Shown one piece after another: positions 1-49,915 of a stretch of DNA of 64,000 nucleotides. A program made the translations under genes and the position numbers. The stretch lies in contig JALQPE010002635.1 in NCBI GenBank assembly GCA_030407315.1, forward strand, positions 41,091-105,090, written 5' to 3'. A model generated the notes under the pieces. That model saw nothing but the letters and a program-made list of their open reading frames with translations. It had not been told where the DNA came from and did not search any database. Numbering within the stretch: the first letter of the stretch is position 1; every line of letters starts with the position of its first letter. Source of the DNA: Asparagopsis taxiformis. Its lineage: Eukaryota; Rhodophyta; Florideophyceae; Bonnemaisoniales; Bonnemaisoniaceae.

Positions 1-1242
1 TCATGCTTGCACTGCCTCTCAACGTCGACAGGAAATACCGTACCGCGACCTTTGGGTCACAGCTTGCACGCCGAGAAACCGAACCAGATCCTGCATTTTG
101 ATTTTTGCTACATCGGGAAAAGCAGCACAGGCGAAATTTACATACTGATATTGAAAGATGACCTGAGCTCGTACGTTTGGTTGTTCCCTTCGGCAACTGC
201 AGACGCCGAGCAAGTAGCTGACGCACTCATTGAATGGTTCTCGGCATTCGGAACAGTGACGCAATGGATCTCAGACCGGGGATCCCACTTTCGCAATAGC
301 GTCATCCGAGCTATCAGGGAGCGCTTGCATTGCGCCCACCACTTCACACTGGCTTACTGCCCTTGGACAAACGGTTCCGTGGAAGTGGTATGTCGAGAGC
401 TCATAAGAGCTATGAGAGCGCTCCTTTCGGAGTACCAGTTACCGCAGAGATCGTGGCCAGCCGTCGTCCCGGTTGTCCAGTCGATCCTGAATAACACTCC
501 GCTCCAGCGACTTGGTGGAAAATGCCCACTGACTGCGTTTACACAGCTACCTGCTGACTCTCCTCTTCTGGCCATTCGTCACCCAACAAAAGAACCAGTT
601 GAAATCCTCCAGATTGAGGAAGTTCGAGCAAAGCAATTGCTGAGAGTCCGCGAGCTGCAGGACTCAATGGACCAGATACACCGAAATTTGTCTCTTTCCG
701 TTTCGGCCGCACGCGAGAAGCGTGTGGCATCGCACAACGCCAGGACACACGTTCGCGCGTGCAATTTCGACGTTGGGGACTTCGTCCTCTGCGGTAAACT
801 GAATCGACATACCGGAAGTAAGCTTTCATTGCGTTGGTATGGACCTCGCCGCATTACTAAGACCCTTTCCGATTTCCTCTTCGAAGTGGAAGACCTCCGG
901 ACGATGGACAAGTCTGTAATACACGGAACTCGCCTCAAGTTTTTTCGAAACAGTAGCTACACAGTCACTGAGGAGCTAATCAATCAACTCTCTTTCCAGG
1001 ACGGAGAGCTGTGTGTGGTAGAGAAATTCTTGGACTTACGGGAGCGCCGAGGAAGGGTAGAAGTACGAGTTCAATGGAAGGGGTTTGAGGATGAAGATCC
1101 CGCCTGGGAGGACATCGACGCCATCCGAAACGACGTCCCCATTCTATTGTCGGAATTCCTAGGTGAGATACAGACTAATGGGACAGCTCGGCAAAAGCGT
1201 ATCGCCTCCAAGGTTCTGGGGATGAACAACAGCACGGTATAG
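1..1242 (+). CDS. Ty3/gypsy integrase with C-terminal chromodomain, 5'-partial
   Basis: The frame is open from the first base, so this is the 3' part of a pol polyprotein. The catalytic triad is visible as Asp in HFDF (about residue 32), Asp in SDRG (about 90) and Glu in GSVEVV (about 126). The 35-residue spacing between the last two is the DDx35E of retroviral-type integrases. The zinc-binding HHCC domain would lie outside the window. After a basic linker, the last ~60 residues (VRVQWKGFEDEDPAWEDI) form a chromodomain, as in chromoviral integrases, where it steers insertion to modified histones. The PWTNGSVE version of the E motif and the diverged core differ from the integrase of the element at 43-53 kb, so this is another lineage. 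No frameshift is seen in this piece. Integrase identity is secure; lineage placement is inference. Confidence 0.9.
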   Translation, partial: SCLHCLSTSTGNTVPRPLGHSLHAEKPNQILHFDFCYIGKSSTGEIYILILKDDLSSYVWLFPSATADAEQVADALIEWFSAFGTVTQWISDRGSHFRNSVIRAIRERLHCAHHFTLAYCPWTNGSVEVVCRELIRAMRALLSEYQLPQRSWPAVVPVVQSILNNTPLQRLGGKCPLTAFTQLPADSPLLAIRHPTKEPVEILQIEEVRAKQLLRVRELQDSMDQIHRNLSLSVSAAREKRVASHNARTHVRACNFDVGDFVLCGKLNRHTGSKLSLRWYGPRRITKTLSDFLFEVEDLRTMDKSVIHGTRLKFFRNSSYTVTEELINQLSFQDGELCVVEKFLDLRERRGRVEVRVQWKGFEDEDPAWEDIDAIRNDVPILLSEFLGEIQTNGTARQKRIASKVLGMNNSTV

Positions 1243-3022
1243 ACGAATCGTGCAATTGTTCATGGGGGACTGTTCTACCCCCTACGTCTCGCGGGTACAG
1301 ATACTGTATCTTAATCTCGGCTTTACGTAGTGACGAGAAATATCCCTTGAGGATCTTGCGGGCTCCCCGAGACACTGTAAATCAGGTGAAGGGAGTTACT
1401 CGCCCGATCGGCCCCGAAACTGATCTGATGAGCTCGCGTCGAGGCGCGACAGTGATCTCGCTATCAAGCAGAGACACCAGCCTCGAATAATGCGCGGCGG
1501 CGAGCGGAGAGATACACTAATAAACTCGCGACGCGCCGTCTCGAGCGAAGGGCGGCGCGGGGTACATTCAGGTACCGGTTCACCTTGCCTCGTAGAGAGA
1601 TTAGTCTGAACTAGCGTGAAATCGCTTCCGCGTACCGCGCGGATCGACCGGAGTGACGCGACCGAATTGGCGAGCGAGCAGGCGGTCTACGCGTACAGCC
1701 TCAGGTGGAGAACAAGGAGTCACTGGCGGAACTTGAATTGTGCCTAGATAAGTTCATTAGTATACGTGCTTTCGGGTTTCATTTGATTTCCTCCAGCCTG
1801 ACTGCATGAAACAAATAGGTTGACGAAGCTGTCGGTGAACTTGCACATCGATCTAAGGGTAAAATAAACTAAGAAAAATTTGCTTCTCCAGACATTGCGC
1901 TGAATCTTATAGCGTGCCATTCGCCTGTCCTACTCCAACACAACTGCTCCATATCATAACTTTGGGGCAACAAGCGCTACATTGTTACCTAGGTTTCAAG
2001 GTATCCAAGTTGCGCTCTGGATCACGAATTGCTGCGAAAGTTTGTGAAGCCCCAATCGGACGCCATCTGCAGGCATATTGAACACGGTTCCAATGAGATA
2101 TATCGGAAACAATGTCACAATCACGGACGAAATCTAGCTTTGTGACAAAACTTGCTTCTGTGACGTCATTTCCGCGCACTTGAATTTCGGCCAGCCGGTG
2201 GAAATTGGGAGAATTATCTACAGTGTGTTTGCCGTGTTCCATTTGTCGACCCATAGCTTCCAATGACTGATGATGCATGTAGAGTAACAGTAATCTTACT
2301 ATTACGCATTATGTTCTAGAGGCATGGACGAAGGGAGAAGATGGAAGTGTGTTAGCATCGACAAATCTCACAGTGGTCTTGCTACACAGATTATGTCACC
2401 TCAAATGATACGCGCGTTCTGGGTTGAGGCTTATGAATTACGACGCGTTATCCAAACATTACCACAGATGCAGTATGGGATGTTTCGCTGAAAATTGTAC
2501 TTTCTACGTTCTTTGATACCTGCTGTACCAGAATAATCATATCGCTACGATTGTTCAGTTCGTCAGAAATCACGTCAGATGCAAAGGCAACAGTGATCCA
2601 GGTAAGGTATGATGTGTGCCTTCTTTTGCACGTGACGGGGTGCGGCATAACCACTCATCCATGGGATTAAGAGCATTAACACACCTTAAGGAATAGGAGG
2701 CTCGTAAATTTCGGGTCGTAATAGTAGTTCCATGAGACTTTAATTATAGATCACCCTTGTTGTGAGCAATGACGTTTACAAAGGAGGGGTACCAACCGTA
2801 CCCTTCTCAATTGAATGGAATAACGTTAAACGTGCTCATCTTGCTCTACCTCCATGGAAAGCGTTGCGCATCCCACTAATAGTTGCCATCACCTTGCTCC
2901 ATTCAACAACCCATCTCTCTTATATTCCCACACCATTCACCACTCCTCCCCCAACCCCCCAACTCCCTCCCTCCCCCTCCTCCTCCTCACTTCTCACACA
3001 AACAAATCTATCACTCCCTCCC
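1243..3022. other. Non-coding; candidate 3' LTR then unassigned DNA
   Basis: No supported gene. A purine run (CATGGGGGAC, about 1260-1270) after the pol stop is followed by TGTTCTACCCC, which could be a polypurine tract and the start of a 3' LTR. A possible LTR end is near 1717 (GAGAACA). No second copy lies in the window, so the limits are unproven. The stretch from about 1730 to 2760 is AT-richer with no ORF I can support. From about 2900 the sequence becomes pyrimidine- and AC-rich and belongs to the cupin promoter. Confidence 0.3.
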
Positions 3023-3030
3023 TATATAAA
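3023..3030 (+). promoter_or_regulatory. TATA box of the cupin gene
   Basis: TATATAAA lies 99 nt before the ATG at 3129, after a long C/T-rich tract (2940-3005). It is followed by a G-poor leader rich in CCA and CAC. The same arrangement recurs before the microprotein and membrane-protein genes. Confidence 0.7.
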
Positions 3031-3128
3031 CTCTCCATCCCCACCCCATTTCACCATCACCTCCCCACCATCAACCCACCTCACCCACAACTTCTCACTA
3101 CTTCCACATCATCCTAACATCCCACCAA

Positions 3129-3587
3129 ATGGCGCCCTCAATTACTCTCTCCTTCATCGCACTCTCCTCCCTCCTCGCCCTCTCTCTCGCCGCGACCCTC
3201 ACCCCCAATCTCGCCGCCCAGCCCGCTGCCCGCCCCCAGCTCACCAAGCGTGGTCTCAGTGCGCAGTCGCGATCCGCGGAGCAGCTTCCGACAGTGAGCC
3301 GTCAATCTGTGACCAATGTCCTGATCGAGCTCGGGCCCGGGGATGTGATCCCTCCGCATTTCCATCCAGATACCATTGAGACATTCCAGGTCGTGCGCGG
3401 CAGACTGGGGATCACATTGTGGTTGGACGGACTTGATGGCCGATCAATTTTCAAAATTGTTGGTCGCGGTCAGAAGTTGACGCTTCCCCCGGGCGCCATT
3501 CATTCCGTCGAATGCATCAGCCGAGTCGACTGTGTCGATGTGTCCACTTTCGACCCCGCTGATCCGGAGACAATCTTTGTTGAATAG
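3129..3587 (+). CDS. Secreted single-domain cupin (germin-like)
   Basis: 152 aa. The N-terminus (about 1-22) is a hydrophobic signal peptide ending in LSLAAT, followed by an Ala/Pro-rich spacer and a possible KR processing site near residue 40. The rest is one small beta-barrel cupin. Motif 1 fits G-x5-H-x-H-x4-E-x6-G exactly (GDVIPPHFHPDTIETFQVV, then RG). Motif 2 (GQKLTLPPGAIHSVE) supplies the fourth ligand. All three His and the Glu for metal binding are present, so a metal-dependent activity or binding role is possible. Germins proper are longer (about 200 aa), so this is a minimal cupin and the substrate cannot be told. The start is the first ATG after the TATA box. It probably acts outside the cell or in the secretory pathway. 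Confidence 0.85.
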   Translation: MAPSITLSFIALSSLLALSLAATLTPNLAAQPAARPQLTKRGLSAQSRSAEQLPTVSRQSVTNVLIELGPGDVIPPHFHPDTIETFQVVRGRLGITLWLDGLDGRSIFKIVGRGQKLTLPPGAIHSVECISRVDCVDVSTFDPADPETIFVE

Positions 3588-5764
3588 GATGGTTATGAGT
3601 GACCAGCTGACATGGCAGTGTGATCGGGTTCTGTTTTCGCTCGCATGTAGTGGTACCGATCTGTCCAGGCCACATTCGTACTGAGAAATAAGTTGTGATG
3701 ATGGTTGAGTCTATTTAACATTGCGTGTTGTTCCAATTCCTTCTCTGAAGCAAACATTGAATAAATGGAATATTATTTTTCAATATTCAGATTTCGAAAG
3801 TCGCTTTTAAAAATTTAAAATGATGGCAAGGTTCACAATATTCTCCGAGATTGGCTACGGCATGCACTAAACCCGATATGTCTGTTGTAGAGCCCTGAGA
3901 CAGGCCGTTCTCCATTGCAAGCCTGTTACGACCAGCTTGGATTCAAGTATTGAGGTAGTCCATTCCCAAGCAGCCCACGTGTTTCAAGTACTGACATGCG
4001 AAACCACGTATTTGGAGCGACATCGCAAGGCCACAACCTTCCATTGTTGTATGCGAACTCCATGTAGAATTTCCAGTGCCTCTAGAACTACTAATAACAT
4101 GCTCTTGAAAGACCATAGCACTACAGCTCTTCGAGTTGAGCATGGAGATATCGATATGGTTGGTCGTAGACCCGTATTCTGCCTTTTTTTGGTGTTTGTC
4201 GAGTACTACCAAGTACTTTGCCTTGCAGCATAGTGGCGGAACACAAAGTGTTTAATCTATGCAGAGAGACTTGTGAGCACAACTCCACAAGTCATTCTAG
4301 TCATATGCCTTACTGCTTCTGTTGCATCATGAAACCAAACTACAAATGACCCTTAACGAGGAAAACCTGACGGTTCCTCACCCACTTCATAGTCTGTGAA
4401 CAGCTGAGGTCGGCTAGATAGTTGCCATCGTGATATCCAGATTCATCTCATTCCGATGACCAATCCAAACATCGTCCGAATTAGCTCTACATCTCGCGCA
4501 AGTAGTCTTCCTCTCAAAGCCCATTTTTGACACTCATATGCAAAAGAGATGAGATACTACGTTCTATCCCTCATCACACTTCTCTATCTCTCTGCCTATC
4601 TCCTAGAATCCTAGCCACAAATGTTCGTAGCTACCCCAAAAGCCGTGACCTGCGAATTTAAATACACCTTGCTGCGCAGGCCTGGCTTCATCCGCTGAAG
4701 ATATGCAAGTGCAGACGCTCCATGTCAGCCACGGCACTTCCACCCTGTAGTTTAATGTGTTTATGGCTCTGTAGAGCACTAGAAGTGAGTCTCCTTAACG
4801 ACCGAGTCTGAAAGTAGACTAATGATGCTAATCGTGAGGGGAACACTGTTTCGCCAAAAGGCATAGTCTGTCGGACCAGGCCCAGCAGATGACTTATGAG
4901 TTTGGCGGTTCACGCACGACTTTCTCAGTGAAGAATGTTGGAGAAAATTGACTCAAAAATAAGTTTTTCCTTGGAAACTACGCTCCATCGAAATTTAGTA
5001 ATCGTCCATTCTGGAACAGCCATCAGAAAAATGACCTTCAAATTGTTCTTCCTGCATTGCTGATGATGCTAGATAGTCCACCTAGATGATCGCGCCGTTC
5101 CCAGGAAGCAGAGCAGTATGGACATCTCATGGGTGTGGATTTGATACTTGTGCACCAACTGAATAGCCGAATATGACTGAAAGATACGGAGGAGGAATAG
5201 GAGTTGTCACCAACCGATACAAGGTGGTTGAACCATAGTTCATGCACATCACCGTCTTCAAAATTGTCAGATCGATAATTCAGTCGCTTTAAGGGTACCA
5301 TGTTCCGCTGTGCCCAAAAACGCTTGATAAGGCCTTATGCAACGTTGGCACAATTTGGTGTACAAACTGCAAAGCCAATGAAATTGCATGCGGAAGCGTC
5401 GCGACAGCATTTACAATCTTCGGGCTGTCGCTCACACCTATTCAAGTAATCTCAGGACTGCTCCCACTCTTGCTCAGAGTGCGGAGCGGTCCTTTCCGTC
5501 AATAGCAGTACTCGGGCTGTCGCGTCATAAGGACACCTGTCGTACAGCAGAGGACAGCCGATTGAAACATCTAACGTCCTTAATTTTCCACCACGTCACA
5601 ACGTCGAAAGGTATACTTGATGTATTTTTCTGAAAAATTTAGCCGGTCCTTTTCTACACTGCGGTAATCACATGTCCTCTTTGGCATCATCCACGTCGCG
5701 GCAGTCTGAACAGTTGTGAAAGACTGGGTGCAAATTTATCTTCCTACTCTCTAATAGACGTCTC
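3588..5764. other. Intergenic, no gene seen
   Basis: About 2.2 kb with only short ORFs in conflicting frames on both strands, none with recognisable domains. ATGAATAAATGG-like AT-rich sequence just after the cupin (about 3755-3790) could hold its poly(A) signal. Confidence 0.5.
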
Positions 5765-5770
5765 TATAAA
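5765..5770 (+). promoter_or_regulatory. TATA box of microprotein copy 1
   Basis: TATAAA, 102 nt before the ATG at 5872, followed by a C/T/A-rich leader almost without G. Confidence 0.65.
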
Positions 5771-5871
5771 GGTTCAACCCCTTTCCGACTCTACACAGAT
5801 GCTTGATCCACACAACATTTCCTCTTGCTTTCCCAACTTCCAAACTCACTCATCCTAACTCATCAACAACG

Positions 5872-6024
5872 ATGGTTCGATTCAACATCTTCTCCCTCAT
5901 GGCTATTTGCTGCATGCTCAACTTTTCTATCACCCTGCTCCCCATCGCCGGTTTCAAGTTTGTGCCGCCTCTTATCGCAGCCGCTTTCATGCGCTCCCAT
6001 GGCAGACAACCTAACAAGCAATGA
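5872..6024 (+). CDS. Hydrophobic microprotein family, copy 1 (50 aa, type A)
   Basis: 50 aa starting MVRFNIFSLMAICCMLNFS and ending FMRSHGRQPNKQ. I do not recognise the family. The N-terminus is a short polar MVRFN, followed by about 18 hydrophobic residues (IFSLMAICC...ITLLPI), then a GFKFVPP break and a second hydrophobic stretch (LIAAAF) with a basic tail. This suggests one long or two short membrane helices. There is no cleavable-signal pattern and no cysteine motif. Three further copies lie within 4.2 kb, with conserved start, length and core (FN-SLMA-C--N-S--LP----K--PP--AA). Conservation at protein level with diverged flanks argues for a real coding gene despite the size. Copy 2 is the closest relative (same length, same FMRSH). 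Its own TATA box and leader suggest an independently transcribed gene. Confidence 0.75.
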   Translation: MVRFNIFSLMAICCMLNFSITLLPIAGFKFVPPLIAAAFMRSHGRQPNKQ

Positions 6025-6870
6025 CGCCCCGTCCAATTTTGTCACCCCGACTGAATCGTGCAAAACGACAAGTTGACTCACGTATGAATGTCGGTTAAGC
6101 AAGTGTTCCACTTCGACTTGCCATACGTGCACATTCAATATTTCTTAACTCAACAATTTAGTAACTTATTAACTGAACAAATGTAAATCAACTAATTTCT
6201 CAAACCACGACATTTGGCTTGTTCCACTCTCCATGCATTGATTGTTTTTTATCTCGTGTAGAGAAGAATCCACATCCTTGCCAAGGTAGTTTGACGACAA
6301 GAACGAGGGATTTCATAGAGTTTCTCGTAGATGGGAGAACAGACGCCCTGTTATCTTGTCTCGTAACAGATAAACCCCTACAACAATTCACGGGCCTTAC
6401 CTTTTCTCTATTAGTCAATATATCCTCTTCAAGAATGCTCTACACCGGTACAACAGGTGTGTTTCCACGAAGGGCAAGTCAACGCAGAAAAATAAAAAAA
6501 TCAAATTTGCGCAGTCCACATTTTTCGAGGGAGAAACGCCTTGCATCGTCAGATGCACAGTTTCCGGCATTGTTGACCAACTCCTTACTACTACTTGATC
6601 ACCAAAGATCTCAATCTGCGGGAGCATGTAGATCTCAAACAGCATATTTGAAACGACGCAGTTTCATGGTTCTGTGGACGATTAAATCTATGGCAAGAAT
6701 GAATTGGATGAGTCCTGGGACAATACGTCCAAGCCGGTTCAGTTTAGTTAGATTAAATAGTTAGTTGATCTAGGCTGTAATACTTGCACCACGATCAAAA
6801 TTGATATGTACATCTCGGCTGAATCGAGCGTGGTACAGACGTTGCCACCAGAGCATGGGCAATTACGGAA
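6025..6870. other. Intergenic between convergent microprotein copies 1 and 2
   Basis: No supported gene. A 181-codon open frame (6219-6764, +) starts only with TTG and shows no domain or membrane pattern. I treat it as chance. Confidence 0.45.
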
Positions 6871-7023
6871 TCAGTGTTTGACATGCTGGGTGACATGGGA
6901 GCGCATGAAAGCTGCGGCGATTATCGGGGGCGCCAGTTTGAGACCGATAAACGGGAGAAGTGTGAAAGAAAAGTTGAGCATGCAGCAGATAGCCATGAGG
7001 GAAAAGATATTGAATTGAGCCAT
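6871..7023 (-). CDS. Hydrophobic microprotein family, copy 2 (50 aa, type A)
   Basis: 50 aa on the minus strand, starting MAQFNIFSLMAICCMLNFS with the core TLLPFIGLKLAPPIIAAAF and the tail MRSHVTQHVKH. It is nearly identical to copy 1 over the first 20 residues and diverges in the tail. It is convergent with copy 1 and divergent from copy 3. The ATG is the family start; an upstream in-frame ATG would add 42 non-conserved residues, so I reject it. A TATATC element lies about 90 nt upstream, with the same C/T-rich leader. Function unknown; membrane microprotein by inference. Confidence 0.72.
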   Translation of the reverse strand: MAQFNIFSLMAICCMLNFSFTLLPFIGLKLAPPIIAAAFMRSHVTQHVKH

Positions 7024-7109
7024 AGATGCAGACGAGAGGGATGGATGTGTTGGAATGGGACGAAATGCGATGGGAAGGTTCGATGATGGGAGCGTCGACC
7101 ATAGTGAAA

Positions 7110-7116
7110 GATATAT
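7110..7116 (-). promoter_or_regulatory. TATA-like element of microprotein copy 2
   Basis: On the minus strand this reads ATATATC within GCATATATCTTTCAC, about 88 nt before the ATG, at a spacing similar to the other family members. Confidence 0.5.
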
Positions 7117-8436
7117 GCTTGTTTTGTGGATGCGATGCAATGTGGTCATTGGCGTCGAAAAGAATGTCTGGCATGGTACTGCTGTCTCGAGCGCTCGAAT
7201 GGCTGGAGAATTGCTGTCCCGTCTAGAGAAATTCCTGCCGCGGAATTCAGTGAATGACAGTAATTATTTGCGGGAATTTCTGGCGCGTGGTATTTTTCCA
7301 TACGAGAAATGTTCATCAGACCGCATTGGTCAAGGACACGTTTCTGTGTCCCGGCAGAAAGAACGGAAATAACCAAGAAGATTCTGATTGGCTAGACGCG
7401 ATGGGAGCTATTTCTCTCGTAGTATCCCTCGGCTACTGTCATACGTTGTTTACGTGGTCGACACGCGCCACGGCGCGAGAAGTCGATGTGCTGTTGACAG
7501 CGTTGTAGTATTTACAAACTCAGTGTCAATGGACATTTCAGTTGTGACGTGGGCTCCAGCCGTTCAGTGAGTAGTGAAACATATGCCTTGCTTTCAGGAC
7601 TTTTACTTCCGCTTTTGCATCTCTTGCCCGAAAACCACCGTCAAGCTCATGTCGACAGGGACTTTCGGACCGGTGTGTCGGAACGAACGACACGTGGGTG
7701 ATGAAAGAATTTTTTCTCCCATCGCTCACATACAAGTTGGTCTCCTAACGCACAGGCAGTTGCTATCATCTCATAATCTCCGTCTATTGCAGACATGCCA
7801 GCATGGTGCCAAATTGCTTTCTGTTTGGCAAAAGTATTTCAACTGCTTCCATAGATATTGTACGTGTCAATCGTGCGCTTTATTAAAGCCGTTCGTGAAC
7901 AACAAACTGCAACATATACATTTTGCGATTGCAAATTGGCCGGTTTTTTTTCAGTTGCTGCTTGCTATCTACCAATCATCATTCCGTACGTTCGGATACA
8001 TCTACACGACCCGTTGGACTTGCGAACAGCTTGGAAGGAGGGGCAAACTCACATAACACTCATGATCGTGAAACTCGTCTATACGACAACGATATGTGAT
8101 CGCTTTGTCAATAGCTCTCTGCTAATCCTTCCACCAGTCAACCACCGCGTGCACCCGCCGTGAATCTCATTTCTGCGTAGAATGATAGCCACAAATCATG
8201 ACCAATCGTGAACCGCGGTATGCACAGCGACGCTTTCGCAACCCAGAAAATTGTATCAGATGAACGTCTGACTTCTTGCATCATGTTTCATTACAACGTT
8301 TATTCCTTCCTCTCTTGTTGACGTTTCCTTCACGGCACTCGACGTTGATCGCACGTGCATTTGCACCCTGTCTCATAGCTCTCACTATAACAATTTTTCC
8401 AAACCATCACCCCAAACATTCTCCTGTCCTAATTGC
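7117..8436. other. Intergenic, no gene seen
   Basis: Open frames here (the longest is 7574-8056, +) overlap others on both strands, lack domains, and look like non-coding sequence. Confidence 0.45.
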
Positions 8437-8442
8437 TATAAG
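8437..8442 (+). promoter_or_regulatory. TATA-like box of microprotein copy 3
   Basis: TATAAG within GCTATAAGAAC, 105 nt before the ATG at 8547. Confidence 0.55.
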
Positions 8443-8546
8443 AACAAAGAACGAATGCTGTACTTCAAACCGTGTCCAAGACTCCTCCATCCTTACTGCG
8501 TGCTCATTCTCTCGCACAGATTGAATACCACTCCCAAACCAAATCT

Positions 8547-8726
8547 ATGGCTCGTTTCAACGTTCTCTCACTGATGGCTGTTTGTGTCCTGCTCAACGCA
8601 TCGTTCTCAATGCTTCCATTCCTTGCGTTAAAGCTTATCCCGCCGTTCATTGGAGCGGCGGTATTCAGAGGAAGTGGAAGGAATTCGAAGCCACTTTTGC
8701 ATAGATTGGTCAATTTGACATCGTAG
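8547..8726 (+). CDS. Hydrophobic microprotein family, copy 3 (59 aa, type B)
   Basis: 59 aa starting MARFNVLSLMAVCVLLNAS, then FSMLPFLALKLIPPFIGAAVF, and a longer tail RGSGRNSKPLLHRLVNLTS. It shares the FN-SLMA-C--N-S--LP---LK--PP core with copies 1 and 2. The tail FRGSG(R/K).SKP.LHRLV is shared only with copy 4, which defines a second subtype. The second hydrophobic segment carries the LIPPF kink. The start is the only ATG matching the family start; an upstream in-frame start would add 25 unconserved residues. TATA box and C/T-rich leader are present. Function unknown. Confidence 0.75.
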   Translation: MARFNVLSLMAVCVLLNASFSMLPFLALKLIPPFIGAAVFRGSGRNSKPLLHRLVNLTS

Positions 8727-9769
8727 TGAAGATGAGATACATGCTTTCGAGACAGAATATTGATGGAAGATTGAAAATAACCCATTTTGTGGACAGTTTG
8801 GTCCGAGCGTCGCGGTAGGGAACGAGTTTTGAAATGTAGGCAGAATTGATTAAAGCCTGAACAGTTTTTCGAGTTGGTTTCGACATGCGCATCCCATCTG
8901 CATCTTTAGTTGCAATCTCGCTTAGATGACGCAGGTATGGCGGCTATCTTCTTTTCTATACCGTCGGAGCTGTTTTGGATCGCAAGCTTACTCCATTTGC
9001 GCGTTGTCATACCACGATTACACTGCTGGGTGGTGACGTGTTCATACGGCACACGCCGTGAGTACCCTGCGGTTACCGGGCGGTAACTTTGGGGTAACTG
9101 TTGTGGTGACCAGATGAAAGCCACTATTTCCAAAATTATCTTCGCCATGACGCAGCGAGTGTAATGAAGTCTCCCGAATACCCAGTCTCAAGTTTCGTCA
9201 TCCTGGAACAATTGTCGCGCATTGATTGGCCCCTGCTCCCGCCTGGCGGAAGGTAGAAAACATAGACCATCATGATGAACTTTTGAGCCGTTCGATAAGA
9301 TGGCCATTGCGATTATTAACTGATGGAGATGCAAACTTTGCTGTCCTCCAACGGTCCCGAATCGTAGCATAGCGTCCATCCATCTTAGGTTAATTTGAAC
9401 AGTGAGGACCAGAATTGCAGAATATATGTGTGGTGCAATCCAGATAACAGACATCAGCTGATGCCGTGCACGCGCTGAGAAAATGCGCCAATCTATTATT
9501 CCTGGAGGCTAACGGCGGCATGTGTACAATCATCATCACCTTCGTTTCTACACAACGCAGCACACGTATATATCCTGTCACAGCACACTATTTCTTCGCT
9601 AGAAATCGTTTGATTCAGAGTTGACCGGATACGGGTACCATCAAAATCCTTGTAGAAACTAGACACATCCTCACCTCATCCGAAATCTCGCAGCGCCCCC
9701 CTTGCTGCTTCCATCCGACACCTTCTCTTGCGTCCTCGAGAGGACACATCCGTACAAAAGGGTGCTTTT
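8727..9769. other. Intergenic, no gene seen
   Basis: About 1 kb without a supported ORF or repeat. Confidence 0.45.
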
Positions 9770-9775
9770 ATAAGA
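9770..9775 (+). promoter_or_regulatory. TATA-like box of microprotein copy 4
   Basis: TATAAG within TTTTATAAGAG, 85 nt before the ATG at 9855, followed by a C/T-rich leader. Confidence 0.6.
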
Positions 9776-9854
9776 GTCGCTCAGATGTATAGTTCCTTCC
9801 CCTTTCGTCATTCTTTCCTCCTCCACCACCACCGTCACAGCCCAACTCCAGCTA

Positions 9855-10025
9855 ATGGCCCGTTTCAACATCGTTTCCCTCATGGCCATCTGCTTCGCTC
9901 TAAACTTCTCCATGACCCTTCTGCCCTTTATTGGTCTGAAGCTCATCCCACCGTTTGTAGCAGCGGCTGTCTTCCGAGGTTCTGGCAAGTCGAAGCCTAT
10001 TTTACATCGTCTTGTTGCTGCATAA
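9855..10025 (+). CDS. Hydrophobic microprotein family, copy 4 (56 aa, type B)
   Basis: I translated this by hand: 56 aa, MARFNIVSLMAICFALNFS, then MTLLPFIGLKLIPPFVAAAVF, ending RGSGKSKPILHRLVAA and a TAA stop. It combines the type A core (TLLPFIGLKL as in copy 2) with the type B tail of copy 3, so it bridges the two subtypes. The position of each hydrophobic block and of the LIPPF kink is preserved. It is followed after about 525 bp by FCF1. The same TATA, leader and ATG layout as the other copies supports expression. Function unknown. Confidence 0.75.
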   Translation: MARFNIVSLMAICFALNFSMTLLPFIGLKLIPPFVAAAVFRGSGKSKPILHRLVAA

Positions 10026-10551
10026 TATCCGCTGTTCAGTACGACTTAAAATTGCGTACCTTGCAGAAACACAGTTTTGAAATTGCGTTCGTAAGACGAG
10101 GGGTACATCTGCCGCCAGTCTTTTGAAACGCCGACTGTACTTTACTAATTTAACTTGTCTCATGGTCAGCGATGATATCAACACTTGACCAAAGAGTTTT
10201 GTAACGATTGAGAATGGGAAACGGGGGTTGAATGGATAGAATGCAATTCGAGATGGTATTAGCCCAACATGTAATTCAATAAACTTGGACAGATATTCCA
10301 CCGACACTCTATTAGACTTCTTCCCGTTACACTTTGAAAATGGAATCAAACAGGCCATTTCTTCATACATTTTTCAATTTCCGCCAGGAAATTTTAATTT
10401 TTCAACAACCAATCAGAAAACCTAAAACATCCCTGTGAACCGTCCAGAAATCCGTAACTTCGTCGCCAGTCAAACAACATTCTCCCACGCCCGCCGCCAC
10501 CGCCATCAGCCTTCCTCCCAAACAGTTCTCCAACTATTCCAGACGTTCAAA
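10026..10551. other. Intergenic between microprotein copy 4 and FCF1
   Basis: About 525 bp with no supported ORF. It must hold the FCF1 promoter; no clear TATA box is visible. The last ~100 nt form a C/A-rich leader. Confidence 0.45.
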
Positions 10552-11151
10552 ATGACGCGCATGAAGAAGACCCGCAAATACGCACTAACGAAGCGTCAAA
10601 TATCGCCCAAGGACAAGCGTTTGAAGCTGAAAGAGATCTCCAAACAAAAACATGCTCCAATTGTGGCGAAAAAGACAGATGCGCAAATACTGCGCGAGAA
10701 TCGCAACCCGTCGTCAATGTTCTTCCAGTACAATCCCAACCTCGGCCCGCCATTCCGCGTTCTCATCGATACCAATTTTGTAAACTTCTCCGTTTCCAAC
10801 AAGCTGGACATTTCCCGCTCTATGCTCGATTGTCTCGCGGCGCCCACGACAGTCTGCGTCACCGACTGTGTCATAGCAGAATTGCAAAAGCTACCGAAGA
10901 AATACGCCGTGGCACTGCGCCTTGCGCGTGATAGAAGGTTCAAGAGGCTGGCGTGCTCGCATAAGGGTACCTATGCAGATGATTGTCTTGTGAATCGCGT
11001 TGCAGCGCACAGAGTCTTTATTGTTGCGACGTGTGATAAGGATCTGAAGAGAAGGCTTCGCAAGATTCCTGGTGTACCTGTCATGTATATTTCGGGGCAT
11101 AAGTATATGGTGGAGAGAATGCCGGAGACTTTGGCACCAACATTGAAATAG
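10552..11151 (+). CDS. FCF1: Fcf1/Utp24 rRNA-processing PIN endonuclease
   Basis: 199 aa, the usual length of Fcf1. The basic N-terminus [15 protein letters not shown] is followed by KDxR and [16 protein letters not shown], a family signature. The PIN domain follows, with the first acidic residue in VLIDTNF, then [11 protein letters not shown], a Lys/Arg-rich helix, [10 protein letters not shown] and [19 protein letters not shown]. It ends [15 protein letters not shown]. In yeast this nuclease of the small-subunit processome cleaves pre-rRNA at sites A1/A2 in the nucleolus. The visible acidic residues suggest an active enzyme. The ATG is the first in frame (upstream only a GTG) and gives the conserved MxxxKKTRK start. 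Its stop is 4 nt from the stop of the convergent PRL1 gene, so the 3' UTRs must overlap. Confidence 0.95.
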
Positions 11152-11155
11152 TCAT

Positions 11156-12742
11156 CTAGTATCTCTTCTCATCCAAATTGGGCTTCCAGTTCAGTGGATG
11201 AGTTTCCTTTGTTGCTTCTTCATCCTCCTTCCACATCTTAATTGTCTTATCAGCCTCGCAGGTAATTAATCGACTTCCGCTTCTATCAAATGCCATTGCA
11301 AATATTCCTGCTTCACAGTCTAAACTTCCGGGTTGTACGCGCGTCTTCTCTGTCTGAAAGCAATGCGCCGCCGCATAGTCCCACATGCAGAGCGTTCCGT
11401 TATCGCCCCCACTCGCCATGACACCGTCCTCATTCACCGCGAGTGCATTTACAAGCCCGTCGTGTTGGGTCAGATTGCGCATGAATGTACCCTGTGGCAG
11501 CCCCCAGGTCTTTATCGCATCGGCTGACGCACTGGCAAATGAAAATAAGCGCGGATGTCTCACGAGTGCTCTCACACCTTTTTTGTGGTTGGTCAATGTC
11601 CCCGAGCAACGTCCCGCCGCCAGATCCCACATTCGTATCGTGCTATCCACCGATGCTGATACAATTTGAGGATCGACCACATCTGTCAATAGCGCATTTA
11701 CTGTATCGCGATGGCCAGGTAGCACGAACACGGCCGCTCTGGTTCGGATGTCCCAGACACGAACTGTTGAATCGCGACCACCTGTAACAAGCACGTCAAG
11801 TGTCGGATGTAGAGATGCGCAATAAACTCCGGATAAATGGCCATGATAGTTTCTGATAACTTTGTTCTGTTCCAGATCCCAACACTTGACTGTTTTATCT
11901 TCACCCACAGAAAACATGTATGGGTGTCGTTCTGAGATGACTAAACCCCTCACTGCGGATATATGTCCTGTCAGCGTGAGTTTGAGCCGTCCAGATGCGA
12001 GATCCCAAATCTTTACGGTCCTGTCCGACGAGCCAGTCGCAAACCAGTGGTTTGACGGATCGACCGCCACAGATCGCACCCAACCGAGATGTCCACTAAT
12101 CTGTCTAAACGGTACCCATGGCGCATGCCATTCCGGCGCGTCCTTCGCAAGCGTCAGTGCATTCTTCGTTGATTCCTTTGTGGACTTTACAATGGCAAGC
12201 GTCTCCCTGCCTACATGGGCTGTTTTCTGTGTAGAACGTACAGCATGCGTGTCGACAGCGTCTATAGCGCGCTGAACAGACGCCTCGAGAGCTCCATGTG
12301 CTACGGAGGCTTCACTATGCCTTATCTCAGTCTTTTCCGGCTCGGCATGCTGTTTTGCTATGAGATCCGACGGAGCGGAACGGGCGGGCGGATGTGATAC
12401 ACGTGGTTGGCGAGGACGCGGTCGTTTGGAAATTGCAGCCGTGTGTGGAGGGGCATAGTGGCCGTGGCGATAGCGAATTGCCAGGCTCTGGGCGAGTACT
12501 TCTGAATCCTCAGGCGGTGAAACCTCCAGAAGAGCACTTTGCGCGCCGAAAAAGATCTGAGTTGAGGTCCGGTTGTGATCTACTAGCGCCTTTGCGCGCT
12601 CCTGGGTGTTCATCGCTGCCAACTTTCTTTCGAAGGGGACGGAAGGATGTGATAAGTCAAGTTTTGGTTTCAATTCAGCGCATGAATTATTTTCTGAAAT
12701 ATTGACTGTGTACGCGAAATAATGAACAGATTTATTCGTCAT
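11156..12742 (-). CDS. PRL1: Prp46/PRL1/PLRG1 spliceosomal WD40 protein
   Basis: 528 aa. The N-terminal ~210 residues are polar and low in complexity, with an RPRPRQPR basic patch. The remainder is a seven-bladed WD40 propeller beginning [20 protein letters not shown]. The blades read [45 protein letters not shown] and MWDLAAGR. Diagnostic C-terminal family motifs are [23 protein letters not shown] and THPLNWKP. This is the Prp19-complex (NTC) subunit needed for activation of the spliceosome, in the nucleus. I start at the ATG at 12742; three residues upstream there is only a TTG. The gene is convergent with FCF1 (4-nt gap) and divergent from PFK (204 bp between ATGs). It implies a working splicing machinery in this intron-poor genome. 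Confidence 0.95.
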
Positions 12743-20046: not shown

Positions 20047-21051
20047 CTAAGCCTCTTTGTGTTCCAGAGAGGATAGTCTCAGGAAGTAGGCGCCCAAAAA
20101 CACAACCATGAACACAAGACCGGTGTGCATTGCGACAGCGCCAGACGTCGTCACCGCATCGCCGGTTGTAAACTTGCCAAACTGCACAATACCGAAAATC
20201 AGCAGCATATACACAAAAACGGTTGCAGTTCCCACGTAATACGCCGAACCAACTTTCCTGTTCCGTATTGCCAGCAAGATTCCAACGCCGCCCCACAGGA
20301 ACATCACGCCGCCAGTCACAGTTGTCAGCGCGGGCAGCACACTGACATTGGGCGGCGATACAAACGGAGTTTCCAACTCGCCGCCATTGTCGGCTGCAAT
20401 GCTCACAATCAAACCGGTTGTAAACGTCCACACGCCAGACATGAGCAGATTCCAATTCCAGAACACGGCCCTCATTTGCGATCCCTTGCGTTGCATGAGA
20501 AAGTCTTTGCCGGAACCGGCAACGACCAATCGTGCCAAGAAGATAAACTGGCCGCCCTGCAGCGCGAGACAAAAGTTGAACGATGTTAGCAGCCCCATGA
20601 TGATCACGGCGCGATTCTGGCTGAGCGACAAACCGTCCACCATGGGTGTTTCGAGATCGACAGCATCAAATATTGGGATGACGAAGATGTAGATTGCAAA
20701 GACGTAGTAGCCGAGTACGGTCTGGATAAGCATGACGATTTTGGTGACCGGGGTGCTGTACCATTTGAGCAAAAGTGCGGATATGCCGACGAGAAAGCCG
20801 AGAAGGCCGAAGATTACTTCGGAGAGTGCTGCGGAGAATAGGACGATTTTGGACGGTCGACCGGAGGAGAAGAGATCAACGGACGGTGCTGTGTCATTGA
20901 ATCGAATGGCTCCTTCATTGTATACGAGTATAGACCAGAGGGAGAGCAAAGCGGCGGCTTCGAGAAATTCGATAGAGTCGACGGGAGATTGCTGTTTCAC
21001 CTGAGCGTTGTCGTCGGCTGCAGGCGGTGGGGCGGTTTCGAGCGCTTCCAT
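20047..21051 (-). CDS. Eight-helix membrane protein family, copy 1 (unknown function)
   Basis: 334 aa. I do not recognise the family. About eight hydrophobic helices follow a polar, acidic N-terminus (MEALETAPPPAADDNAQ). Conserved in all four copies are (S/A)I.F(L/I)EAAALL..WS.LV.NEG, SE(V/I).FGLLGF.VG, Q.VLGY.VF, LSL.Q.R.V, CLALQGGQF.F.AR, MRA.FWN, PFVSPPNV.VLP, and GLVFMVVF at the C-terminus. The glycine-rich LALQGGQF segment at the end of helix 4 is the best signature. The family resembles a small transporter or receptor-like fold only in topology. I take MEALETAP as the start; upstream there is only a GTG. This is the most diverged copy. It lies 0.2 kb from LSM14 and head-to-tail with copy 2. 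Confidence 0.85.
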   Translation of the reverse strand: MEALETAPPPAADDNAQVKQQSPVDSIEFLEAAALLSLWSILVYNEGAIRFNDTAPSVDLFSSGRPSKIVLFSAALSEVIFGLLGFLVGISALLLKWYSTPVTKIVMLIQTVLGYYVFAIYIFVIPIFDAVDLETPMVDGLSLSQNRAVIIMGLLTSFNFCLALQGGQFIFLARLVVAGSGKDFLMQRKGSQMRAVFWNWNLLMSGVWTFTTGLIVSIAADNGGELETPFVSPPNVSVLPALTTVTGGVMFLWGGVGILLAIRNRKVGSAYYVGTATVFVYMLLIFGIVQFGKFTTGDAVTTSGAVAMHTGLVFMVVFLGAYFLRLSSLEHKEA

Positions 21052-21522
21052 TTTGGCGGATGGAGTCGGTTGTGTGTACACTGAGCAGTTTGATGTGCAC
21101 AGTGCATAGTATATATAATAACGGACATAGCGTCATGGTTGTGGACAGATGCAGGCGGAAGACCAAGGTGTCCGAAAGGCTAAGCACTGGACGCGCTGGA
21201 CCGGACAGTTCTGGACAGACATGACTGGACGCGGAGAGAAAAAAAAAGTTTGCCAATGGAGATGGAGGAACAATCTGAGGAGGGCACGCGCTGGAAATGG
21301 ATTGGAAACTGTGTGGAGTGTGATGGGGAAGGTATCATGGTCGATGATGATGGGCAGACAGACAGGCAGGCAGGCAGTGCGCGATGAGTGACAACGGCCA
21401 GCTGGCTGGTTTATTTTTATCAAAGTTAACAAATGACATTTTTTTATTTCACCTACAAACAAATAGCGCCGCCTCGGAAAACTATTAACACACATCCTTG
21501 TCCAACGCACTGACAAACGGCG
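21052..21522 (-). promoter_or_regulatory. Promoter region of membrane-protein copy 1
   Basis: On the minus strand TATTATATATACT (around 21110-21120) is a TATA box about 60 nt before the ATG. The rest of the ~470 bp to the stop of copy 2 holds only tandem GACA(G) runs near 21355-21375 and no gene. Confidence 0.55.
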
Positions 21523-22509
21523 TTACATCTTCTCGTCCTGCTCCCGTTCGGACACGATCAAGAAATAGGCGCCCATGAACACGACCATGAACACGAGGCC
21601 ATTATGCAGCGCCACGGCGCCGGACGGTCCTCCGAACAGGCCAAACTGCACGATGCCATAGTTTAAAAACGCCGACACGTACACATAGGCGGTGACGAAA
21701 TAGTACAACTTGGGCACCGCCATACCACTGGCGCCCAGAAAGGCGCCGACGCCTCCCCACAGCAGCAGCAACAGGCCGGTCCACACGGTGAGCCCTGGCA
21801 GAACGCCGACATTGGGCGGCGAAATATACGGATCGGATAATCGACCACTTTCAGTCGCATTGGCGGACACGATCGCGCCGGTGATGAGCGTCCACAGCCC
21901 CGAAAAGGCCATATTGGCATTCCAGAAGATGGAGCGCATACGCGCGCCGTTCTGCTGTCTGAGAAAGTCCTTGTGTGTGCCCGCGACGATGAGACGGGCC
22001 ATAAACACAAATTGGCCGCCCTGTAGCGCGAGACAGAAGTGGAACGAGGTGAGCAGACCCATGACGAGCACGGCGCGACTCTGCGATAGCGAGAGACCGG
22101 GCACGATGGGCATGTCGAGATCGACGGTGTCGAAGATCGGCTTCACGAAGACGTAGACGACAAACACATAGTAGCCGAGCACGGTTTGGATGAGCATGAG
22201 CGCTTTGGTTGCGGCGGTGCTGTACCAGCGGAGCGTGAAGGCGGCCACGCCGACAAGGAAGCCGAGGAGCCCGAAGATCACCTCGGAGAGCGCGGCGGTG
22301 AAGAGGATGAACTTTGAGGGACGGCCGGCCTCGAGAAGCTGTATGGACGGCTTGGTGTCGTTGAGTCGGATGGAGCCCTCGTTGATGACGAGGAGAGACC
22401 AGACGGTGAGCAGGGCGGCGGCTTCGAGGAAGGCGATCGATTTGGACGGCGGGGTCGGGATCATCTTTGTGTCGGGCTCCATTTGGAGTTGGTCGTGATC
22501 GGCGTCCAT
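21523..22509 (-). CDS. Eight-helix membrane protein family, copy 2 (unknown function)
   Basis: 328 aa from MDADHDQLQMEPDTKM. It has the same eight-helix layout and signatures as copy 1: SIAFLEAAALLTVWSLLVIN, SEVIFGLLGFLVGVAAF, QTVLGYYVFVVYVFV, GLSLSQSRAVLVMGLLTSF, CLALQGGQFVFMARLIVAG. It ends HNGLVFMVVFMGAYFLIVSE plus an acidic tail. By eye it is closer to copies 3 and 4 (35-38.6 kb) than to its neighbour copy 1. The start is the first ATG after a TATA-like element; the longer open frame begins with TTG. No charged or catalytic signature points to a substrate. Plasma-membrane or endomembrane location is a guess. Confidence 0.85.
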   Translation of the reverse strand: MDADHDQLQMEPDTKMIPTPPSKSIAFLEAAALLTVWSLLVINEGSIRLNDTKPSIQLLEAGRPSKFILFTAALSEVIFGLLGFLVGVAAFTLRWYSTAATKALMLIQTVLGYYVFVVYVFVKPIFDTVDLDMPIVPGLSLSQSRAVLVMGLLTSFHFCLALQGGQFVFMARLIVAGTHKDFLRQQNGARMRSIFWNANMAFSGLWTLITGAIVSANATESGRLSDPYISPPNVGVLPGLTVWTGLLLLLWGGVGAFLGASGMAVPKLYYFVTAYVYVSAFLNYGIVQFGLFGGPSGAVALHNGLVFMVVFMGAYFLIVSEREQDEKM

Positions 22510-22585
22510 GATGGAAGGGATGGGAACAATGAGGTAGTTGGTTTGGTAGGATAGCGACAGTGGGGTGAGGCGCGAATGATCTAGG

Positions 22586-22593
22586 TTATAAAC
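22586..22593 (-). promoter_or_regulatory. TATA box of membrane-protein copy 2
   Basis: GTTTATAA on the minus strand, 77 nt before the ATG at 22509. Confidence 0.55.
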
Positions 22594-24608
22594 GAGAAGG
22601 TGGTGCAAAAAATTGGTCAATGATGGACGTCTGGTCGTAATGCCATGACGAGACGGGGCGCTATCAACTGTCGCGATTTAATGGGAGATGAAATTTGTTA
22701 TATTTGCGCGCAATTCAAAATGACGTGTTTTCAACCGATCATTTACAGTTATGAATTGTTCAAGCATTGGTGTACAGTTATGATGCATACACTGTACGTT
22801 ACATTTCTGCGCACATCCATCTGCTGCCGCTGCCGCCGCCGCCCGACGTGGTCGTCGACACCAGCCGCGCGCGCACAGCTTCTGCATGCCATTGCATTGC
22901 ATCGCATCGGAGCACTGGAAACAGCGCGCCACGCAGCGCCATTTCTCCGCGCTTCGAGAGAGTAGGCGGTAGAAAAGGATGTGCTGATTGTTCAGCCTCG
23001 AGACCGTCAGCCAGGCCGCGCGGCGATCATTTACAGCGCGCATACACGTGTTGATCGTACGAGCACCGTTCCAATCGAGCCATCGTCCATGTTTAAACAC
23101 ATCCCGTCGCCATGTACGTGTATTAATCTACACAACCATCCATCCTCCACCCCTACAAACCCGTCCGCCGTGCCCCACCGACCCGTGCACGCTTCTCGCC
23201 GCGTCGGACCTCGCCGCCATGCAATGCGATCGCATCGCAATGGACGGCGTGGCGTGCCAATCGAACCGTGTGGCGGTGTGTATTAACGTGTCGACGCGGT
23301 TTTAAACGCTGGTGTGCAAATTATTATTTGTTTTTTTCTTCCCGCATCCTTTTCTCGCTATATTTAGCCGCCGTTTCACACGCGCGCATGCTCGTCAGGA
23401 AACTGTTTACGTTACTTTGCCGCACGGGGCACCGTCGCGGCCTGCCATGGTCGTTTGTAGACCGCCGACGAGAACGACTCCTCGCCGGACGATTCTGCTT
23501 TCCCGCGGCGTGCTTGCCGCCTAAACTTGCATCGCTACGCATGCCGCTTACGTCACTTGAACGTTGATATGATCGCGGGATGTGACAGGCGATTCGCTTC
23601 GATAAGAAAACGTTAAATGTGCATCTAGTGTTGCTTTCTCCGTTTACACCCCAATCAAATTTATATATTCGTTTAATAGCAATCGCGTCGGCGACCAACC
23701 ACTGATAAATCGATTCTATTTAGGGCTGATTTCTGCCATATCGTCTCAAATGATCGACTCTGTTCCGCAGCAGAAGACCCTTTCTGGTCGCATTTTGAAA
23801 TTTCACGTACGTAGGAGACGCTCTCAGACATCTCCATGTCTTAATCTGGAATAAATAAAAAGGATGCTTGCCGTGTATGGCAGTCTGAGTATTGGCGTTA
23901 TATTGGACCACTCAGGTACAAACTTGAATCACAAATAAAAGTTGCTTCAATGTTACTATTAATTCACAAAAGCAACCAAAACAAGCTATTGGTTCGCGTC
24001 AATTGGACGAAATTGTTCACGCTTCCAAAACATTACGTCATTTCACAACGTTTAGTATTTCATCACTAGAAATACCAACCAAACTCCAAATATCTACAAC
24101 TTGGAAGACGTGGTCAAACCGTTCCACCGTTGAGTGGGGCATTTCCTCTCGGACGAGTTCGATTCCCACCTGCACAACCACGCAATTCGAAAAGCCGCTG
24201 ATACGCGCACGATGCATCGCCACAAACAACCCACACTGCCGGGTCAAAATAGGCAGCACTACACAACGGGAGGGAACGAGGGTGTCAGGAATCTGTGGCA
24301 AAGTCGGCGCTTTGTTTTTGTTCGTCTGGCAATTTTTCTATCATCATCCATCCATGCTAAAGTAGAATTGATTCTTGCATTTACACTTCTCTTGTCTTCT
24401 AAACCATTAGATCTCGACACTGAAACGTAGCTTGGCCATACAACATCGGCCTGTCTAATCCCCAGCTCTGGAAAAGCGGATGGCGGCCACTACCAGCAAC
24501 AAACCACTGCGACAGTCAGCACGGCTCAACCACTCGGCAACTTTTCCGTATCGCAACCTAGAACATCGCTCCGCACAATCCACTACACAAGCAACGAAAG
24601 CATATACG
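22594..24608. other. Intergenic, no gene seen
   Basis: 2 kb. GC- and CpG-rich in the first half (22800-23560) and AT-richer after. Many short overlapping open frames on both strands lack domains. A tRNA B-box-like GAGTTCGATTCCC near 24160 does not fold into a tRNA (see rejected). Confidence 0.45.
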
Positions 24609-25406
24609 TCACAAACGTGACATACCCCGCCCGCCACCATCAAACCTCTCACAACAAAGTGGCTTTGCATTAAGCTTGGGCGACACGCACGCAAAGCTAT
24701 CATCTCCCAAATCCGAACAAATATCGCCCTCCATACACTTCTTATCATTGCACGTACACAACAGCTGTTCCAAACTCCGCGGAAAACATAAACATCCCTT
24801 CCGTTGACGACACGGCTCCAATTCAAACCCAACAATCTTCATACAGATACGTTCCCCCGCACAATAAGAATCGCTATTGCATTTTTCTCCCGAGAACCCG
24901 CCACTGCGCATGCCCGGTGTCTCCTCCACCACTTCCGCAGTTTCACTAGGCGTTTCTGTCGCGCACACGATCTCTTCATCGTCATTCACAACCGAGGTAC
25001 ACACATTCATCCCATTGACAACCTTCGCACTGCATCGATCCCCGGGCAGACAATCCTGGTCTGCACAGGAGCATGTGAAATCGCAATAATTCACCGGCAG
25101 ACAAATACATTTCAAACCGCGACATGGCCCCCGAACAGAAATTTCGTCCCGCTCAACACAGGTACGGCTGCCGGCACATTGCGAATCTTGCGAGCAATTC
25201 TCCCCCGTCGCACGACTGTCCGACGCGTCCTGTCGGAGCGCTGTGCGCAGCGACGGGTGGTCGCTGTGCGCGCGCGCCGGGGATAGCTGCGTAATGGTCT
25301 TCAACTTGGCGATGATGGGCTGCGTCTGGTCGACGCGCAGGCCGCGCGTGCAGAGAGCGAGGAGGAGCATTGTCGTCAGAGAGAGAATGGGACACACGCG
25401 CTTCAT
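24609..25406 (-). CDS. Secreted protein with two twelve-cysteine modules (copy 1)
   Basis: 265 aa. The signal peptide MKRVCPILSLTTMLLLALC is followed by a ~50-residue polar propeptide-like region. Two cysteine-rich modules follow: about residues 70-140 (GENCSQDSQCAGSRTC) and 170-250 (GEKCNSDSYCAGERIC). The module pattern is C-x5-C-x5-C-x(8-12)-C-x(4-5)-C-x-C-x(8-9)-C-x-C-x4-C-x5-C-x(n)-C and a final C, with the signature (E/P)GD.CS near Cys10. It looks like a compact disulfide-bonded repeat, distantly reminiscent of Dickkopf/EB-type modules. I recognise no named family. The C-terminal GGGRGMSRL tail lacks an anchor. Two paralogs follow upstream at 26.5 and 30.5 kb on the same strand. I infer an extracellular or cell-wall role. 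Confidence 0.82.
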   Translation of the reverse strand: MKRVCPILSLTTMLLLALCTRGLRVDQTQPIIAKLKTITQLSPARAHSDHPSLRTALRQDASDSRATGENCSQDSQCAGSRTCVERDEISVRGPCRGLKCICLPVNYCDFTCSCADQDCLPGDRCSAKVVNGMNVCTSVVNDDEEIVCATETPSETAEVVEETPGMRSGGFSGEKCNSDSYCAGERICMKIVGFELEPCRQRKGCLCFPRSLEQLLCTCNDKKCMEGDICSDLGDDSFACVSPKLNAKPLCCERFDGGGRGMSRL

Positions 25407-37577: not shown

Positions 37578-37584
37578 TATAAAA
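37578..37584 (+). promoter_or_regulatory. TATA box of membrane-protein copy 4
   Basis: TATAAAA, 91 nt before the ATG at 37669, with a C/A-rich G-poor leader. Confidence 0.65.
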
Positions 37585-37668
37585 CCCATCCAGCACCCGT
37601 CACAGTCCAACCATCATCCCACCACACCCCGTTCAATCCTCCGATCCCCCGAACACAACCATCCCACC

Positions 37669-40034: not shown

Positions 40035-40211
40035 GAGTCAGATGAGAGGCGAGTGAAGATGGAGGACGTCAGGAAGTTAGCCAGGCCAGTGGTAAATATG
40101 GTGCAGGCTTGTTTGTTACCATACATGTTTCCGGTGAGCTGAGCTATGTGGTGTGGATATTTCTCTGTTCCATTGAAACGTTTTGGTTGTCGGAGAAATA
40201 TGGGTATATCA

Positions 40212-45877: not shown

Positions 45878-45891
45878 CCGGGGGGAGTGAG

Positions 45892-49907: not shown

Positions 49908-49915
49908 CCAAGCCT

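Follow-up and report, generated by a model that had tools for sequence, protein, structure and literature searches.

The 64,000-nucleotide stretch of the Asparagopsis taxiformis genome analysed here (the window, part of contig C2507) carries four short open reading frames (ORFs) that belong to a family of at least six hydrophobic microproteins. Judged from its codon substitutions this family is under strong purifying selection, and residues 1-33 of its members are probably homologous to the leader, consisting of the signal peptide and about 11 residues after it, of secreted germin-like cupins encoded in the same genome. On balance we lean towards the explanation that the microproteins arose from a cupin leader that came to stand alone, would mostly be left uncleaved and would reside in the endomembrane system.

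A microprotein family on one contig

The genes, named after their positions on contig C2507, are the following:

Window 5872..6024 (contig 46962-47114), plus strand: c47k, 50 amino acids, short subtype
Window 6871..7023 (contig 47961-48113), minus strand: c48k, 50 amino acids, short subtype
Window 8547..8726 (contig 49637-49816), plus strand: c49k, 59 amino acids, long subtype
Window 9855..10025 (contig 50945-51115), plus strand: c51k, 56 amino acids, long subtype
Contig 24261-24410, minus strand: c24k, outside the window, found by protein search of the genome
Contig 26476-26625, plus strand: c26k, outside the window, found by protein search of the genome

The four window ORFs had been reported in a preliminary description of this DNA, and their positions, strands, lengths, ATGs and stop codons are all confirmed. 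That description had counted a family of four. When the genome (141,494,207 bases in 3156 contigs, 141.5 Mb) was searched at the protein level with the 56-amino-acid copy, six loci were obtained at an expectation value (E) of at most 10, all of them on C2507, and the two additional ones, c24k and c26k, are located upstream of the window at a distance of 14-17 kb. A second search using c26k as the query returned the identical six loci first, with weak matches after them. Since only the best candidates were scored in the search, six is a lower bound. The proposal of a duplication with one inversion holds as regards the duplicated family, but two of the six copies are on the minus strand once the upstream ones are counted.

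All six ORFs are intact. Four copies form the short subtype, with 50 amino acids, a C-terminal KQ or KH and a shared stop position, while the two copies of the long subtype have 56 and 59 amino acids. The shared motif described previously is real: 19 alignment columns are invariant among the four window copies, the same 19 are invariant among all six, and the element LP....K..PP (L23 P24, K29, P32 P33) is exact throughout the family. The six proteins are hydrophobic, lack aspartate and glutamate altogether and have a net charge of +3 to +6.

Selection acts on the coding sequence, and DNA similarity never passes the stop codon

Pairwise counting over the first 43 ungapped codons gave a ratio of nonsynonymous to synonymous substitution rates (dN/dS) of 0.05-0.29 in 12 of the 15 pairs, those for which dS was finite; in the remaining three pairs dS was saturated. 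Overall dS spans 0.5 to saturation, and several of the finite values exceed 1 and are hence imprecise. Fisher tests on rounded counts, performed for four pairs, gave p = 1.0e-7, 3.1e-5, 2.9e-10 and 3.7e-5. The corresponding ratio of proportions (pN/pS) across all 15 pairs was 0.21 for codons 1-21 and 0.28 for codons 22-41, and among the four short copies it was 0.12 and 0.17 in these two segments and 0.49 in the tail (codons 42-50).

The flanking DNA, compared by blastn over 1.5 kb on either side, behaves differently from the coding sequence. Similarity runs from the ATG into the coding sequence for 17 to 50 codons, depending on the pair, and never beyond the stop codon. Two pairs, c24k/c26k and c24k/c47k, are also similar over about 30 bp upstream of the ATG, c47k/c48k over 13 bp and the other pairs over 4 bp or less; the remaining flank matches come from overlapping flanks in which one DNA is counted twice, including a 74-bp stretch on opposite strands. 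The flanks had been called unrelated, which is correct after the stop codon but not quite so before the ATG. Because dN/dS is low and the flanking DNA essentially unrelated, the copies qualify as a selected protein family, as had been suggested; neither a dN/dS near 1 nor similarity running equally through the non-coding flanks, both of which were looked for, was found. The possibility that the genes are passengers of a mobile element was rejected for lack of shared flanks.

Short conserved ORFs close to genes might also be regulatory upstream ORFs acting on a downstream gene through ribosome stalling, and c51k does lie about 0.5 kb ahead of an Fcf1 gene. However, the copies share no 3' flanking DNA within 1.5 kb, no common downstream ORF was seen by eye within 300 bp, and the C-terminal end, which is usually critical in regulatory upstream-ORF peptides, is here the least conserved part. 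We consider this explanation very improbable.

The start of the microproteins resembles a cupin leader

The preliminary description had matched the microproteins to no known family. Outside the genome this held in every search: with one microprotein as the query the protein database gave no homologue, with the six-sequence alignment it gave 45 candidates and none at E ≤ 10, none of 28 pattern stretches in prokaryote genomes or 42 in viral contigs was confirmed, and the four window microproteins, scanned against Pfam, had no match at E ≤ 1, the cupin barrel PF00190 included. Absence from such databases is weak evidence, because they may lack short ORFs. Within the genome, however, the start of the microproteins matches the leader of germin-like cupins. 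The clearest case is a cupin on contig C107 (Pfam PF00190, Cupin_1, E 1.4e-16), whose closest solved structures are the oxalate oxidase/germin entries 2et7 (E 2.2e-11) and 1fi2 (E 4.8e-11), which we take to be barley germin. Its leader reads

MARFNTLSLLALLSCLISLSLASIPSLGLDTAP

and the start of c26k, for comparison, reads

MARFNIFSLMAICCLLNFSITLLPVVGFKLAP

Residues 1-33 can be aligned to the cupin leader in all six copies with about 36-45% identity and one gap. Contig C2507 itself carries cupin genes among the microprotein genes:

Contig 28396-28829: cupin relic, broken by stop codons, with about 80% DNA identity to the 31967 cupin
Contig 31967, 34650 (cup34k), 36596 (cup36k) and 44219 (cup44k): secreted cupins lying between the microprotein genes
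Window 3129..3587 (contig 44219), plus strand: cup44k, Pfam Cupin_1 at E 1.4e-9, belonging to the cupin block as a more distant relative

Along the contig the microprotein genes at 24.3 and 26.5 kb come first, followed by the relic and the four cupins, and then by the microprotein genes at 47.0-51.1 kb.

Several tests support the relationship. In a local search space of 48 kb (contig C2507 14000-51999 plus 1-10000) the C107 leader matched all six microprotein genes with E between 4.6e-6 and 5.5e-4. When 100 shuffled leaders were searched in the same space, 73 had some match to a microprotein gene at E ≤ 10, the best with E 0.018, and the best E for the reversed leader was 0.093. Alignment scores relative to shuffles, calculated for all six microproteins, gave z of 6.7-9.4 with C107, 5.2-8.7 with the 31967 cupin and 1.2-5.0 with the 36596 cupin; the three controls, secreted cysteine-rich neighbours unrelated to the cupins, gave -0.4 to 2.2. 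After removal of residues 1-9 none of 400 shuffles reached the score against C107 for c24k, c26k or c48k, and p was 0.003 for c47k. A profile alignment by hhalign of microprotein with cupin leader had a probability of 91.7 over 34 columns, a value obtained with no null run.

The DNA agrees with this. Over the first 54 bases 39 are identical between c26k and the 31967 cupin, and in a codon-shuffle test against the four on-contig cupin starts a fraction of 0 to 0.047 of the shuffles reached the observed identity; this test favours cup34k and cup44k too, unlike the protein test, and we relied on the protein tests. Genome-wide, a DNA pattern that encodes M[AV][RHQ]FNxx and then requires an S-like codon and L or F occurs at 22 sites, namely the six microprotein genes, 15 cupin leaders and one other, and its reversed control occurs at none. 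All 15 of these cupin leaders were recovered at 98-100% identity in the genome leader search, and for 13 of them a cupin body was matched there as well. In the reverse direction, a genome search from c26k gave the six microprotein genes and then ten others, nine of which were cupin leaders.

The main alternative here is that the membrane microproteins arose independently and that their likeness to cupin leaders reflects convergence among signal-peptide-like sequences of one genome. Signal peptides are alike in composition, and a number of results weigh on this side. At the scale of the genome the expectation values are weak, both for the C107 leader (E 0.039-0.135, with three of the six microprotein genes among the matches listed) and for the reverse search (E 0.044-0.065), in which the one non-cupin match, on C1336, was judged by eye to be noise. 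Some cupins of the same contig have no protein-level likeness: the first 42 residues of cup44k are identical to those of cup34k and show no clear resemblance to the microproteins, and this shared leader, like that of C778, gave z of -0.4 to 2.2, the same as the unrelated neighbours, while the comparison of cup36k with c49k failed (z 1.2). Beyond residue 9 the match to C107 is marginal for c49k (p 0.062) and c51k (p 0.018), and the null for these tests was limited to shuffled leaders and a few neighbours. Finally the MARFN start was seen in off-contig cupins, whereas the on-contig germin-like ones begin with MARSN or MAFSS, and for this reason F4 may be partly convergent.

Against convergence stand the extension of the likeness beyond the hydrophobic core (P..G...AP), its persistence in four copies without residues 1-9, the failure of 100 composition-matched shuffled leaders and of the three neighbours to reach comparable scores, and the interspersion of the microprotein and cupin genes. 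Taken together we regard an independent origin as rather unlikely. As for the direction of descent, it would run from cupin to microprotein; we infer this because more distant cupins (C778, C2744) have the P-S-[LF]-G-L-[DE]-T part of it too.

If the microproteins descend from cupins they could also be decaying pseudogenes, that is, truncated copies with leftover ORFs. Real cupin relics do occur, both nearby (the one at contig 28396-28829) and elsewhere in the genome (the C443, C186 and C550 types). The low dN/dS, the six intact ORFs and the stop position common to the four short copies nevertheless speak against decay, as does a search of the 48 kb with the 31967 cupin, in which, apart from the known cupins, the relic and the microprotein genes, no cupin-like match was better than E 0.27. 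We give this explanation hardly any credence. A match extending beyond the stop codon of c24k, obtained with the leader, looks like noise.

Other loci with leaders of this kind were observed in the genome. Five equal-scoring cupin leaders lie on C2079:25999-47700, and four of these follow one another in one orientation at intervals of about 5.2 kb; the MARFN-type cupin has probably been amplified here in a recent tandem array. MARFN cupin leaders at C534:17429-17572 and C1889:15499-15642 have no cupin body at those places, and leaderless bodies lie about 5.7 kb away. C186 carries a sequence that starts like a cupin leader and then diverges, forming a 63-amino-acid ORF in the one copy read, and 11 other contigs have the same score (12 places in all); the leader family has thus apparently given a second short ORF, borne on a repeat.

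A membrane segment is predicted to be retained and the cleavage site to have faded

The preliminary description had proposed a membrane layout with two segments. With an approximate insertion-energy scale and a simplified weighting, the predicted insertion energy of the hydrophobic core (residues 4-20) is -0.39 to +0.05 in all six copies, so the first segment could be inserted. The second hydrophobic stretch has a best predicted insertion cost of +4.4 to +4.8 and, according to this model, would not span the membrane by itself, being too short and interrupted by K29 and P32P33.

The score at the expected signal-peptidase site, calculated with a likewise approximate matrix and judged against the usual threshold of 3.5, is 10.5-13.7 in five cupins. 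At the equivalent residue 21 of the microproteins it is 3.9, 3.9, 1.9, 3.1, 5.6 and 0.9 (c24k to c51k), below 3.5 in three of the six. By this sequence measure the strong signal-peptidase site of the cupins is faded in the microproteins.

Not everything here agrees with an uncleaved membrane protein. Four of the six microproteins exceed 3.5 at some site, which is residue 21, 27 or 37 depending on the copy, and the AlphaFold prediction, mainly one helix over residues 6-41, is a poor model (mean predicted local distance difference test score, pLDDT, 68.7; predicted template modelling score, pTM, 0.36). The same proteins could instead be secreted cationic peptides with an antimicrobial or signalling role, in which cleavage near residue 21 frees a basic, hydrophobic peptide of 29-38 amino acids with a variable tail. 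Beyond residue 21 the charge is indeed +3 to +5, with no acidic residues and about half of the residues hydrophobic; S19 is invariant and residue 21 is always T or S, which leaves the -3/-1 rule unbroken; the tail evolves fastest; and the parental leader resembles a normal cleaved one. On the other side the score at residue 21 lies far under that of the cupins in every copy and the best site changes from copy to copy, conservation peaks within the leader and not in the would-be mature peptide, and residues 22-41 are not amphipathic in any of the six (helical moment 0.07-0.14, no better than shuffles, p 0.72-0.93). An amphipathic antimicrobial peptide was accordingly rejected as a candidate, the charge being appropriate and the helical moment at shuffle level. 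We regard secretion of a freed peptide as unlikely, while granting it more weight than convergence.

A proposed origin from a leader without its cupin

Under the explanation that we lean towards, the cupin body would have been lost and the hydrophobic core of the leader (residues 4-20) kept; the cleavage site would have weakened, K29 and the PP-AA segment would have become fixed, and a new, variable basic tail would have come to end the ORF. From its sequence, the leader should still target the nascent chain to the endoplasmic reticulum, where the peptide would be inserted and remain mostly uncleaved. It might then reside in the endomembrane system or the plasma membrane, anchored by one helix whose juxtamembrane continuation is kinked at PP and leads into the basic tail, and might act by packing against a larger membrane partner. 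Our guess is that this partner is one in common with the parent, that is, the machinery for cupin export or maturation. The complete scenario, in which a freed leader with its cleavage site largely lost expanded to six copies as a selected membrane microprotein tuning the export or maturation of the parental cupins, is a speculative one that we think doubtful as a whole.

The closest known proteins are the germin-like cupins (PF00190) of the same genome, with which the microproteins share the alignable first 33 residues and the interspersed gene arrangement. They differ in lacking the barrel (in the four scanned), in the weaker cleavage site and in size (50-59 amino acids versus about 170). 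The cupins moreover have D after G where the microproteins have K, and the PP-AA segment and the basic tail are confined to the microproteins. Plant microProteins, for example LITTLE ZIPPER, are small proteins that come from one part of a larger protein, and the family resembles them in its small size, in its probable derivation from a single part of a larger parent, and in having been duplicated and kept under selection; here, however, it is the export leader and not an interaction domain that would be retained, and an action directed at the parent is only proposed. Sarcolipin and phospholamban are single-pass membrane micropeptides, similar in size and in having one hydrophobic helix with conserved polar residues and basic residues near the end, but the likeness is one of layout only, with no sequence relation detected by Pfam. 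The precursors of frog-skin cationic peptides also combine a conserved leader with a variable basic end in a gene family. The microproteins share these three traits with them, yet are not amphipathic, are conserved through residue 41 and are doubtful as substrates for cleavage.

Other features of the window and genome

A TATA-like string, a candidate whose role is putative, lies 86-124 bp ahead of the ATG in all six microprotein genes. In the window these strings are:

Window 5765..5772, plus strand: 107 bp before the c47k ATG
Window 7109..7116, minus strand: 93 bp before the c48k ATG
Window 8437..8444, plus strand: 110 bp before the c49k ATG, with a second at -161
Window 9769..9776, plus strand: 86 bp before the c51k ATG, with a second at -67

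Nothing was detected in the whole window by Rfam at gathering scores or by a tRNA scan, nor by a tandem-repeat scan of window 4000-12000. Four ORFs, at window 20047-21081 (minus), 21523-22620 (minus), 34988-36052 (minus) and 37360-38649 (plus), look by eye like one family of multi-pass membrane proteins. The first of them matches tetraspanin below the threshold (E 0.0015), and its relatives include proteins of Chondrus crispus and Hildenbrandia rubra. Three others, at 24609-25406, 26539-27387 and 30467-32251 (all minus), appear by eye to be a family of secreted cysteine-rich repeat proteins, and the one scanned gave no significant Pfam match. ORFs resembling retrotransposon proteins, again by eye, occupy window 7-1242, 39339-40712, 44045-50581 and 54023-55681. 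Elsewhere in the genome we observed phycobilisome genes, including an R-phycoerythrin-like alpha chain on contig C469, which indicate a plastid with phycoerythrin and most likely a red alga. A search for the VWA domain gave 55 matches, which are consistent with, although not specific to, the VWA proteins described in PMC12115072.

Significance

The locus belongs to Asparagopsis taxiformis, a species that is studied for lowering livestock methane. Small proteins made from parts of larger ones, and single-pass membrane micropeptides, are already known. A limited literature search, with most subscription papers outside its scope, returned nothing on this microprotein family and nothing on a family that retains an export leader. 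A microprotein without a database homologue could be traced through the short starts that it has in common with neighbouring genes. Signal peptides are usually regarded as disposable tags under loose constraint, and in this family one has seemingly turned into an independent, strictly conserved gene product, with the leader kept and the cargo lost. This suggests a route to new membrane microproteins, and a leader-derived family of this kind would be an unusual way for a new gene family to arise.

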